From a virus: 36,739 nucleotides of DNA. Numbering within the stretch: the stretch's first letter is position 1; every line of letters starts with the position of its first letter. This document shows, one piece after another, positions 18,460-25,815 of this stretch. The notes under the pieces are model-generated. The model saw only the letters and a program-made list of their open reading frames with translations, ran no database searches and was not told the origin of the DNA. The position numbers were made by a program, and so were the translations under genes. The stretch covers positions 1 to 36,739 of the IMG/VR virus record IMGVR_UViG_3300033993_001957, one strand, 5' to 3'.

Positions 18460-18466
18460 TATTTAG
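18460..18466 (-). promoter_or_regulatory. Late promoter box with minimal leader
   Basis: CTAAATA-GTTT-AGGAG-CAAA-ATG on the minus strand. The box overlaps the stop codon of the upstream 285-aa gene. With T4-like spacing the mRNA would begin at or next to the ribosome site. Confidence 0.65.
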
Positions 18467-19320
18467 GAATTTTCGTTGTCTAAATCCTCAAAAATTGTGA
18501 TCCACTTGGGTTCTTCACCGCGACGCAGATACGCAGCCTTGGCAAATCCCCACTCTTCACGCTCTTGAATGCGGTAGCCTGCCTTGTGCTTTTTGGCGTA
18601 ACGCATGGCAGACTCTTTGTCTTCAAAGTACTCGTAGTTGCCTTCGTTGTCCATAGCACCAAACAGTCCACTTGAAGTTTTCCACACATCGCCAGGACGG
18701 TGCTTCTGTGCAGCAGCAGCACTCTCTCCGCTCTTATCGCTTTCACCGCCCTGTTGTTGTGGCTCGTCCTTGACATTGAACACAAACTTCTTGCCAGCGT
18801 GTGGTCCCTTACGCAACTGCGAGAAAAACTGTACAACCTTGTGCTTGGCAAGTTCAAGATTATTTTGCCCTTCCCCCTTCTTGAAACGCATCAGTACTTT
18901 GCCAATACCAGCACTTTCGTTGGTGCCAATGTAATAAAAGTCCTGATCGTTCTTGTACATGACCGAATGCTGCTTGTAGTGGCGACCCAACTTGACAATT
19001 TCTTCTTTCTTGATGTTGGGGATTAGCAGACTCAATTCCTCAACAACACCACCTTCTTCTTGATAGCCACCCTTCATCTCAATATACCCGTATCCCATGT
19101 CACGGACACGCTTCTTGAGGTCATCGTGGAGTTTCTTGTTCTCTTCTCGTGAGTTTTCGCCACGGAAAGCACTAACAATACCAAAATCCTTCTTGTCGTC
19201 TTCCACATACTGGAAAACGCGAGACAGTTTAGCCTCTACAATTGGAGTTTCACCCACTTCACGACGCGAAATCCACTCGTTTAGTCCGTTTTGGTCAAGG
19301 TATTGTGAAAACTTCTTCAT
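18463..19320 (-). CDS. Late protein with DUF3293-like N-terminal region
   Basis: In the 285-aa product, residues about 40-160 contain FGIVSAFRGENSREENKKLH, then YGYIEMKGGYQ followed by VVEELSLLIP, and GRHYKQHSVMYKND. The order (dispersed pair of helices, G-Y, E-x-S, K-Q-x-S-V) is reminiscent of DUF3293. A Gln/Ser/Ala-rich linker (about 195-215) precedes a C-terminal part with DVWKTSSGLFGAMDNEGNYE and a Lys/Arg-rich helix. A late box lies 31 nt upstream, and AGGAG precedes the ATG, so it is probably expressed late. Exact role unknown. Confidence 0.5.
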   Translation of the reverse strand: MKKFSQYLDQNGLNEWISRREVGETPIVEAKLSRVFQYVEDDKKDFGIVSAFRGENSREENKKLHDDLKKRVRDMGYGYIEMKGGYQEEGGVVEELSLLIPNIKKEEIVKLGRHYKQHSVMYKNDQDFYYIGTNESAGIGKVLMRFKKGEGQNNLELAKHKVVQFFSQLRKGPHAGKKFVFNVKDEPQQQGGESDKSGESAAAAQKHRPGDVWKTSSGLFGAMDNEGNYEYFEDKESAMRYAKKHKAGYRIQEREEWGFAKAAYLRRGEEPKWITIFEDLDNENS

Positions 19321-20698: not shown

Positions 20699-21691
20699 TC
20701 AAATAGTCTCGGCGTTGCCCGACCACTTGATGTCGTGCAGGTATTCAAGATTTGCAGTAATTAGTTCACTAGTAATAAATGCCTGCATTTCAGAAAAACT
20801 CTTAAATTCACGCAGACAACCGCTGCTGTAAACTTTAAACAATCCCAAAGTTTTAAGCACATCGCATTTATTGATTACCAACTCCGTGCAACCTGATACT
20901 TGAACGGATTGCTTCAGGAAATCAAGATTCAACCAATTTACCAATCGCTTACGCCCTGTGGTTGAACCGTATTCACCACCCAATTCAATAATTCTGTTCA
21001 GCGCAGGATCGTCCCACAGGGATTCAGAGAACAGCGGATCAACACCACTCTTGGTGTCGTATGCTTTTGCAACTCCGATCAGACGCTTAATTTTCTGTGT
21101 GGGAAATCCAAGAGAGCAAGCACCGTAAGGCATGGTTGTGCTGCTTGTCACATACGGGTAATCGCCGTAGTCAATATCCAACCACACGCTCTGTGCGCCT
21201 TCACACAGCACCTTGCCGTCCAATTCTCCGTCCCACAGCCATTGGGATTCAAACACATCAACTGCTCGCTTGCCGCAGCGAATCATCTTGTCTGAATAGC
21301 ACGGTGCAATACCCTGCCCTGTGGTTCCAAGATGCCCCAAGTGCCGCTTGTCGTAATCAATGTGTGCTTCGGTAATGATATGTGCAGCAGGAGAAATCTT
21401 TACAAGTGAAGTATCAAACCCTTCGCTGCGAAGATACCGAATCTCTTTGAAAAACTTGTCCGTATTTATTACACAACCTGCACCAATCACACACCGCTTG
21501 CCTGCAAAAATGCCTGAAGGAATAATATGGGTCTTGTGCTTCTTGCCGTTTACCCATACGGTGTGTCCTGCGTTTGGTCCGCCGTTCCATCGGCACACCC
21601 AATCGTATTTGGGGGCAAGAGCAGCGGCAATCTTTCCCTTGCCTTCATCGCCCCACGCAAGACCGTATACCACATCAACGGTTTCAATCAT
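20699..21691 (-). CDS. purA: Adenylosuccinate synthetase (short phage PurA)
   Basis: The 330-aa product makes adenylosuccinate from IMP, Asp and GTP. It shows WGDEGKGK (about 13-20), which keeps the catalytic Asp that is changed to Ser in PurZ of 2-aminoadenine phages. It also shows NGGPNAGHTVWVNG, THIIPSGI, LGTTGQGIAPCYSDK, CEGAQSVWLDIDYGDYPYVTSS and GEYGSTTGRKRL. Bacterial PurA is about 430 aa, so this is about 100 residues shorter, mainly in the C-terminal half, similar in size to archaeal and PurZ-type enzymes. It ends an operon that also encodes GMP reductase. Start overlaps the upstream stop (ATGA). Confidence 0.93.
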   Translation of the reverse strand: MIETVDVVYGLAWGDEGKGKIAAALAPKYDWVCRWNGGPNAGHTVWVNGKKHKTHIIPSGIFAGKRCVIGAGCVINTDKFFKEIRYLRSEGFDTSLVKISPAAHIITEAHIDYDKRHLGHLGTTGQGIAPCYSDKMIRCGKRAVDVFESQWLWDGELDGKVLCEGAQSVWLDIDYGDYPYVTSSTTMPYGACSLGFPTQKIKRLIGVAKAYDTKSGVDPLFSESLWDDPALNRIIELGGEYGSTTGRKRLVNWLNLDFLKQSVQVSGCTELVINKCDVLKTLGLFKVYSSGCLREFKSFSEMQAFITSELITANLEYLHDIKWSGNAETI

Positions 21692-22879: not shown

Positions 22880-23130
22880 CGCTTGAACAGATACTTTAGT
22901 CTGCTCCAAAAGTTTTGATACGGAGGAAATCCTAAAACTCCACGCTTCAGACTGTCTTGCCACCCACACCCATCAGTTGCTCGGGTATATTTCAGAATAG
23001 TTGCGGGCGGATACCGATCACTTATTTCTCGCCACGCATGGCATTCATCAGACAGGATACGAACCTGCCGCAGCAGTTCTTCCTGCCGTTCCAAAAACCG
23101 CTCTTGGCATTGGCGGTCGCACAGGCACAT
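22876..23130 (-). CDS. Small Cys-rich early protein
   Basis: The 84-aa product begins [20 protein letters not shown], with three Cys in the first eight residues plus DECHAW and DGCGW later, so zinc binding is possible. The ATG at 23130 overlaps the stop of GMP reductase (TAATG), giving coupled translation. The C-terminus is basic (FWSRLKYLFKR). No family recognised. Confidence 0.55.
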   Translation of the reverse strand: MCLCDRQCQERFLERQEELLRQVRILSDECHAWREISDRYPPATILKYTRATDGCGWQDSLKRGVLGFPPYQNFWSRLKYLFKR

Positions 23131-24188
23131 TAGCCGTTGCCCCACACAGTATTGAGTTGACGGTTTACGCGAATGAAAGTTGTGCACTTGCTCAAGTCCT
23201 TGAGACGAGACGCACCCACATAGGTACACGCAGACCGCACACCGCCAAGAATCTGCTGCATGACTCCATCCACAGCACCCACATGGGGCACCACAACCCG
23301 CTTACCCTCTGCTGCACGATAGGTGGCAACGCCTCCCGAATACTTGTTCATGGCTTCTGCGGAACTCATTCCGTAGAACACCTTGCCGTCCTCGGTTTCC
23401 TCGCCTGCGGCTTCATCCGTTCCCGCAAACATACCACCAATCATAACAAAGTCCGCACCCGCTCCAAATGCCTTGGCTACATCTCCTGGACAGGTGCACC
23501 CACCGTCCGAAAGCACATAGCCACCTAGTCCGTGTGCGGCATCAGCACACTCCATTATGCACGACAGTTGCGGGTAGCCAACACCTGCAACCTTTCGCGT
23601 CGTGCAGACTGATCCTGGACCGATCCCGATCTTGACAATATTTGCACCTGCCAAAATCAGGGCTTCGGTCATTTCTCGTGTCACCACATTGCCTGCAATC
23701 AGGATATGGTTGGGGAAAGTCTTGCGAACAAACTCCACATACTGCACAAACTTTTCCGTGTATCCGTTTGCCACATCAATACAGATAAATTGAATGTGGC
23801 GATGGGCATCAAGCACACTCTGTGCCTTTTGCAATTCGTTCATGTTGGAATTGGCATCACCCATGCCCATTGTGTACACCACACCACATTGCCCCGAATT
23901 GTTTCGGAGCCACCAAGACATTTTCGTGTCCCACTCGTCCTTGGTGTAGTACTTGTGAACAGCACATAACGCTCCGTGTGCCTGTAGAGCAGTTGCCATT
24001 TCAAATGTTCCAATGGTATCCATGTTGGATGCCATGATGGGCACACCACTCCACAAAACTTCTCCGCTGTGGGTCTTGAACTTGAAAGTGCGATTCAGAT
24101 TCACTTTGCTTCGGCTATCCAATGTAGACCGCTTGGGGCGAATCAGCACATCAGCAAAATCCAACTTGATATCGTCTTCAATCTTCAT
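23130..24188 (-). CDS. guaC: GMP reductase
   Basis: The 352-aa product converts GMP to IMP with NADPH, releasing ammonia. It has [20 protein letters not shown] near residue 10, [18 protein letters not shown] near 48, and the catalytic loop [20 protein letters not shown] with Cys at about 188. The phosphate loop around [20 protein letters not shown] and the [14 protein letters not shown] flap are also present. The length fits E. coli GuaC (347 aa). IMP dehydrogenase shares this fold, but the lack of a CBS domain and the short length favour GMP reductase. AAAGGAG precedes the ATG. It lies 18 nt after tRNA-Gly and shares an operon with purA. Confidence 0.92.
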
Positions 24189-25062: not shown

Positions 25063-25329
25063 TCAATACAGTCCAATCACTCTAACATTTGATCCGCTGG
25101 TTGAAGCACCAGCAATTTTAAGAGGAAGAATAAAAGTTCCAACAGAAGCACTGGCACCAACCGCAATTTCTGTCTGAAAAGTTGTTCCGCCAGTAGCCCC
25201 CCATAGGTGAATGGTGGCACTGCCCGCTGCTCCACTATTTGTGAGTAGTATGCCCTTTACCTTTTTATCAGAAACATTCACGAAAGTTGTTGAGTTGGCA
25301 ATAAATCTTCCTTGGCTGTAGATATCCAT
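25063..25329 (-). CDS. Small beta-rich late protein
   Basis: The 88-aa product begins MDIYSQGRFIANSTTFVNVS, continues DKKVKGILLTNSGAAGSATI, and ends VRVIGLY. It is Gly/Ser/Thr-rich with alternating hydrophobics, as in small head- or fibre-attached proteins. The ATG at 25329 follows AAGGAGAACCCCT, so an ATG 21 nt upstream (overlapping the late box) is rejected. TATAAATA (25351-25358), the exact T4 late box, lies 21 nt before the ATG. Confidence 0.65.
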   Translation of the reverse strand: MDIYSQGRFIANSTTFVNVSDKKVKGILLTNSGAAGSATIHLWGATGGTTFQTEIAVGASASVGTFILPLKIAGASTSGSNVRVIGLY

Positions 25330-25350
25330 AGGGGTTCTCCTTGTGTCCAT

Positions 25351-25358: not shown

Positions 25359-25368
25359 CAAAAAGAAA

Positions 25369-25388
25369 GGACGGCATTTCTGCCGTCC
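25369..25388 (-). terminator. Intrinsic terminator of tmRNA gene
   Basis: GGACGGCA, GAAA loop, TGCCGTCC, followed on the minus strand by TTTCTTTTT. Confidence 0.88.
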
Positions 25389-25624
25389 GTTCCGCCCGTT
25401 CAGATGCGGGAGGGCTTTCCCCACGGCTTCAAGCCGCCATTGCCAGTCTGTTGGCAATTATGGTTTACAACCCGTTTTTAACGAGGCGTGTTGCAGACCC
25501 CGAATGCCTCTTGTTTCTGTACTCCACGCCAGTCGAATGCCTATACAGCCCCAATGGGATTTAGTGGAGCCGAGGGGAATCGAACCCCTGTCCTGATCGT
25601 GTTTCTATCCACCGTCAACAGCAT
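25389..25624 (-). ncRNA. ssrA: Circularly permuted (two-piece) tmRNA
   Basis: On the minus strand the tRNA-like 3' part comes first: T-arm AGGGG-TTCGATT-CCCCT (25573-25589), then CGGCTCC and A (25565). A 12-nt spacer follows, then the 5' part GGGGCTG (25546-25552). All seven acceptor pairs form. The 5' part continues GCATTCGAC, as in tmRNA D-arm regions. Helix 2 pairs CTGGCGTG (25525-25532) with CACGATCAG (25593-25601) with one bulge. A resume site ATAATT-GCC opens a tag reading ANRLAMAA and TGA (25429-25455), with the stop in a hairpin. The T-arm-before-D-arm order is the mark of permuted tmRNA. Termini are approximate. Confidence 0.88.
25429..25455 (-). other. tmRNA proteolysis-tag reading frame
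   Basis: Eight codons GCC to GCT then TGA encode ANRLAMAA. With the charged Ala this gives AANRLAMAA. The end in small hydrophobics plus AA is what ClpXP/ClpAP recognise in known tags. The six bases before the resume codon, ATAATT, fit the A-T-A-R-T-Y pattern of E. coli (ATAGTC). Confidence 0.75.
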
Positions 25625-25815
25625 TACTGATATTTAGCCAACTCCCGCTTCCACTTCTCGTCCACCCTGTGTGGCATGGGAAAGTGCTTACACAAGCGGT
25701 GGGCACGGAGCCGCACCTCTCGCGGCACACGAGGAGTTTTCTTGGGATCAAGCAGATCGTAAAGAAACTGCCGAACTCCATTCAGGCTGTGGACTTCTTC
25801 ATACGGTAGTGTCAT
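25624..25815 (-). CDS. BPSL0761-family small protein
   Basis: The 63-aa product reads MTLPYEEVHSLNGVRQFLYD, then LLDPKKTPRVPREVRLRAHR and a LCKHFPMPHR end. The order M-T-x-P-x-E, helix, P-x-V-P-x-x-V-R-x-x-A, H-x-P is typical of the short BPSL0761 family found in proteobacteria and their phages. No function is known for it. AAGGAAGCCCAAA precedes the ATG, which lies inside the end of the upstream gene. The late box of the tmRNA overlaps its stop region. Confidence 0.65.
   Translation of the reverse strand: MTLPYEEVHSLNGVRQFLYDLLDPKKTPRVPREVRLRAHRLCKHFPMPHRVDEKWKRELAKYQ
25631..25637 (-). promoter_or_regulatory. Late promoter box driving tmRNA
   Basis: CTAAATA on the minus strand overlaps the 3' end of the BPSL0761-like gene. 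A start about 6 nt downstream would lie just before the acceptor half of the tmRNA. Confidence 0.6.

Follow-up and report, generated by a model that had tools for sequence, protein, structure and literature searches.

A complete phage-borne gene for a circularly permuted (two-piece) tmRNA, from an undescribed lineage of a known kind

The minus strand of a stretch of viral DNA of 36,739 nucleotides (IMG/VR record IMGVR_UViG_3300033993_001957, here called the window) carries, at about 25625-25360, a complete phage-borne gene for a circularly permuted, two-piece tmRNA, and this tmRNA belongs to an undescribed phage lineage of the known two-piece kind. The best overall explanation of the results is that the gene is a working one, which we consider very probable. 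The parts of the gene, together with the gene that precedes it, are as follows.

25624..25815, minus strand: upstream gene for a BPSL0761-family protein of 63 aa (NCBIfam NF041728, 38.7 bits, cut-off 35)
25631..25637, minus strand: CTAAATA, putative late-type promoter box (motif counts and conserved position in relatives)
25565..25625, minus strand: acceptor piece (RF04321, covariation)
25553..25564, minus strand: intervening segment of 12 nt, presumably removed (sequence, CTAAATCCCATT)
25389..25552, minus strand: coding piece (sequence, RF04321, covariation)
25429..25455, minus strand: tag frame ANRLAMAA with stop TGA (ARAGORN; peptide identical or nearly so in 16 relatives)
25360..25388, minus strand: intrinsic terminator with 8-bp hairpin, GAAA loop and T-run (sequence; hairpin kept in relatives)

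The gene matched the Rfam model RF04321 (tmRNA_permuted) over model positions 1-213 of 213 with 79 bits, in comparison to a gathering cut-off of 47 bits, and with an E value of 1e-13 (2.4e-17 on the record), while an independent ARAGORN call gave a permuted tmRNA with the tag ANRLAMAA. The signature pattern of the tmRNA was found at a single place in the window, and no match was obtained in 100 shuffles. The best of the older Rfam subtype models was RF01850 (beta_tmRNA), which gave a partial match of 44.8 bits, far under its cut-off of 84, and the subtype is therefore left unassigned. The covariance-model search proposed in the preliminary description of this DNA thus placed the gene in the merged permuted family and not in the beta subtype.

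In transcript order, the T-arm and the acceptor 3' strand (25589-25565) lie ahead of the acceptor 5' strand (25552-25546), which is the permuted layout that the preliminary description had read from the letters and on which RF04321 and ARAGORN agree. The T-arm, AGGGG-TTCGATT-CCCCT (25589-25573), is followed by the acceptor 3' strand CGGCTCC (25572-25566) and the discriminator A (25565), all on the minus strand, and the acceptor 5' strand GGGGCTG is found 12 nt downstream of this A. All seven acceptor pairs form, as had been proposed, two of them as G-U pairs, namely the alanine identity pair G3-U70 and U6-G67. Helix 2 joins the two pieces by pairing CACG..CAG (3' strand, 25601-25593) with CTG.CGTG (5' strand, 25532-25525; CUGGCGUG as RNA), and a second cross-piece helix is formed by AAUGC (25625-25621) and GCAUU (GCATT in DNA, 25507-25503). 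Pseudoknot 1 occupies 25502-25466 and pseudoknot 2 occupies 25422-25394. The resume region, AACCAUAAUU-GCC, leads into the tag, whose codons GCC AAC AGA CTG GCA ATG GCG GCT TGA (25455-25429) open with alanine and close at a TGA in the loop of CGGCT-TGA-AGCCG (stop hairpin 25436-25424), so that the tag and its hairpin stop are the same as first read and the ARAGORN tag is identical. CCA is encoded neither by the tmRNA nor by any of the eight tRNA genes of the window. The clean terminator described earlier is present as GGACGGCA-GAAA-TGCCGTCC followed by a T-run at 25388-25360, but the span then given to the gene started at 25389 and excluded it; in the relatives the hairpin is retained with a different stem sequence.

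Relatives were found among IMG/VR contigs via the neighbouring purA-type gene, the resume-region pattern and the tag pattern. The lineage thereby gained ten more tmRNA copies (L101, L102, L112 and L225-L231), all of which keep the layout; there are near-duplicates among them (e.g., L225/L228 and L226/L230), and many relatives are mutually close. In the alignment of 11 rows, 90.9% of the cells were paired in the proposed structure and changes on both sides were observed at 17 pairs and 56 cells, in comparison to at most 6 pairs, 17 cells and 55% paired for slid controls in which the partners were moved by 1-3 columns. The covarying parts are the acceptor stem, the T-stem, helix 2, the second cross-piece helix and pseudoknot 2. 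The cross-piece helix AAUGC/GCAUU, for instance, becomes GGUAU/AUACC, GGCAU/AUGCC or GAUAC/GUAUC in relatives, while G3-U70 is a G-U pair in 11 of the 11 sequences. A model match and covarying acceptor and helix-2 pairs, whose joint absence had been named beforehand as evidence against a tmRNA, were thus both seen. The weak point of the structure is stem 2 of pseudoknot 1, with only 42% of the cells paired at the register used; the relatives inspected visually do pair when the register is shifted. Weak matches of RF00023 in L112 and L229 were attributed to misalignment of the T-arm with an unsuitable model. No near DNA relative was found among named phages, for which the weak matches listed cover the T-arm region only, and the DNA comparison (BLAST) of the tmRNA with 398 Pseudomonadota genomes gave matches around the T-arm only.

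The tag was ANRLAMAA or ANRMAMAA in all 11 sequences, a result favoured by the tag-pattern search that was used for some of the relatives. Six further loci found without the tag pattern carried ANQLAMAA, ANKLAMAA, ANELAMAA or AAPMRMAA, and the wider kin mostly carried AN(R/K/Q/E)(L/M)AMAA, with many of the codon differences being synonymous. By inspection only, the first tag codons (25455-25442 in the window) could fold as a small hairpin GCCA...UGGC. Two separate branches, L352/L358/L361 and L353, retain it as GCUA...UAGC, the changes C3 to U and G12 to A being found together in both. In our scans, ARAGORN called 210 permuted tmRNAs, among which 111 different tags were represented, counts which are not readable as frequencies because the scans were pattern-selected, some loci overlap and a few contigs are bacterial. 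LAA is the ending of 65 of the 111 tags and MAA, the second commonest, that of 22; the commonest length is 10, and the shortest are five 8-aa tags, all from the window's lineage. The tag pattern was found in 0 of the 398 sampled Pseudomonadota genomes, and the host's own tag may or may not be a different one. For ClpXP, the terminal Ala-Ala matters most and a YALAA tail suffices on GFP (PMC7652416), and degradation of proteins tagged with ANRLAMAA is thus the default expectation. The earlier suggestion that the tag may direct proteins to a different fate found no support, the terminal Ala-Ala being kept and the MAA ending being the second commonest among the phage tags compared.

These tag data also bear on the reading of the RNA as a decoy or regulator, which would draw SmpB or ribosomes away from the host tmRNA, or whose tag would alter protein fate. 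Such a role has a precedent in the tag-less tmRNA-like RNA of phage DS6A, which is cited in PMC11915505 as inhibiting the host tmRNA on expression in E. coli, and it would fit the lack of the short tag in all 398 Pseudomonadota genomes, but the reading frame, the stop hairpin and the terminal Ala-Ala, the last being the main ClpXP signal (PMC7652416), are all retained, and we consider this reading improbable. Less probable still, and in our view very unlikely, is a decayed fragment of a host tmRNA that was taken up by the phage, e.g., at an integration site, and is no longer functional: prophages often integrate in ssrA and take pieces along (PMC9004378), but here both halves, the promoter box and the terminator are complete, the gene is retained in ten relatives, and the covariation together with the largely synonymous tag changes shows selection. 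An assembly of tRNA-like pieces by chance, favoured by nothing except the general abundance of T-arm sequences, is already refuted by the E value of 2.4e-17, the lack of any match in 100 shuffles and the covariation.

With regard to expression of the tmRNA gene, the minus strand of the window has ten copies of CTAAATA and the plus strand none, in comparison to an expected 3.1 for both strands together; the orientation of the genes in this region, most of which are also minus-strand, may contribute to this bias. Several of the copies lie a short way upstream of gene starts. The copy at 25637-25631 falls within the last codons of the BPSL0761-family gene, whose end coincides with the start of the tmRNA gene, and a TAAATA box stands at the same place in nine of ten relatives, though the genes upstream differ. 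T4 late promoters have a usual spacing between box and start, and this spacing, counted from the box, gives a predicted transcription start at about 25625, which is also the start of the Rfam match. The motif statistics support CTAAATA as a probable late promoter, and the late-type box that had been noted at 25631 is upheld by both its minus-strand enrichment and its conserved position.

The surroundings are those of a T4-like phage, with baseplate hub and tail proteins and eight tRNA genes, and the gp32-type single-strand binding protein is nearest to those of cyanophages, at about 55% identity. Two purine-pathway genes, an adenylosuccinate synthetase relative and a GMP reductase, were found at 20699-21691 and 23130-24188 (minus strand), the former bearing the PHROG name 2-aminooxy adenylosuccinate synthetase and scoring below the NCBIfam PurZ cut-off. 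The gene at 18463-19320 (minus) matched the Pfam S-adenosylmethionine lyase family with 44.1 bits; S-adenosylmethionine lyases are of the kind used by phages against restriction. Directly after the tmRNA terminator lies a small gene (25063-25350, minus) that matched no Pfam or NCBIfam family, and ahead of it TATAAATA (25358-25351) is found as the only exact copy in the window. A search for the host that started from the BPSL0761 gene reached no more than scattered contigs of MAGs from unrelated phyla, several of which are probably phage contamination. One MAG (L193, Rhodobacteraceae bacterium Water_Bin34) gave nine permuted tmRNA matches, which probably come from co-binned phage contigs.

From these features, a route from gene to tagged protein may be proposed. 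A precursor would start at about 25625 from the late promoter at CTAAATA and end at the intrinsic terminator (25388-25360). Host RNase P would cut at GGGG and a 3' nuclease would trim after the discriminator A, so that the 12-nt segment is removed, and the host CCA-adding enzyme would complete the acceptor 3' end, with the acceptor stem, helix 2 and the second cross-piece helix joining the acceptor and coding pieces. The RNA would be charged by host AlaRS through G3-U70 and, with host SmpB, would enter stalled ribosomes and add Ala followed by ANRLAMAA, the Ala-Ala end of which would be recognised by ClpXP. SmpB was found in none of the 12 phage records searched, all of which are possibly fragments; the SmpB used is therefore presumably that of the host, and the function of the tmRNA would depend on fitting it. 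The likely use is that ribosomes would be kept free and fragments cleared late in infection.

The least expected observation of the analysis concerns relatives of the window, in most of which the segment between the tmRNA halves consists of 71-123 nt of conserved, structured RNA. Across the lineage, this intervening segment measures 12, 71-109 or 122-123 nt, the 12-nt form being found in the window and L101. In L102 (123 nt, 1563-1685) and L112 (122 nt, same place), a cloverleaf-like RNA lies between the halves, with a fold of -39.1 kcal/mol (z -2.9) for the L102 segment and with two stems compensated between the two loci, AGUUAG/CUAACU to GGUUAG/CUAACC for the outer stem and GAAGG/CCUUC to GAUGG/CCAUC for the other; neither ARAGORN nor Rfam called a tRNA in it. 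The 13 other members (L225-L231, L352-L355, L358 and L361) have segments of 71-109 nt that share the motif UCAAG.CCUC..UGCAG.GGGG, and a hairpin upstream of the motif shows CUGC(A), complementary to UGCAG; most members of the lineage carry such a pair of hairpins, in which the loops are complementary (CUGCA/UGCAG). In an alignment of five of these sequences, two pairs were changed on both sides, which is modest evidence because the events are few. A scan of IMG/VR with the motif returned 17 contigs, 13 within tmRNA intervening segments and 4 apparently by chance, and the pattern was present in 0 of 398 Pseudomonadota genomes. No known Rfam RNA was found in the intervening segments of the loci searched, and self-cleaving ribozyme motifs were also considered and dropped, as none matched. 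In the tmRNA-core tree, rooted at the midpoint only, the four motif-less loci group (93/95) inside the motif-bearing sequences, which is explained more simply by loss or replacement of the segment in the clade of the window. We tentatively suggest, as a possibility on the less likely side, that the intervening segment of the lineage functions as an RNA in its own right, which was lost in the window's phage, leaving 12 nt.

In comparison to RF04321, the window tmRNA shares the layout, the acceptor with T-arm, helix 2 and the resume region in a full-length match, and differs in its 8-aa tag, the lack of an encoded CCA and the 12-nt intervening segment. The tmRNAs of Mycobacterium phages (e.g., Alice and HyRo) are also phage-encoded and match the window's in the T-arm region; they have the one-piece layout and are annotated with a 25-aa tag (ATDTDATVTDAEIEAFFAEEAAALV), in comparison to 8 aa here. 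RF04321 merges the alpha, beta and cyano two-piece tmRNAs and was supplied by the tmRNA database paper, which screened RefSeq viruses (PMC11915505). A two-piece tmRNA in a phage, the novelty of which was implied by the preliminary description, had already been published in 2022 for Methylophilales phage Melnitz and other aquatic phages, again T4-like myophages; that study counted 402 phages with tmRNA and 133 unique structures, 53 of them two-piece and 50 of these aquatic (PMC9004378). Such genes are common in IMG/VR, where our scans gave about 200 more permuted calls beyond the published set. The Melnitz tmRNA has a riboswitch and early action was proposed for it (PMC9004378), whereas a late-type box and no riboswitch was found in the window.

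In general, the two-piece tmRNAs of phages, which have been little studied, gain a further lineage with good support. The Melnitz tmRNA was proposed to act early, whereas the late-type promoter found here points to a late role in infection. Between the tmRNA halves of the relatives, though not in the window itself, the structured segments may represent an undescribed RNA element; if they are functional, a second structured RNA would be set free during tmRNA processing or would guide it. With the shortest of the 111 phage tags and the nearly fixed pattern AN(R/K/Q/E)(L/M)AMAA, this lineage would make it possible to test, with one small gene, what a phage may gain from a tmRNA of its own.
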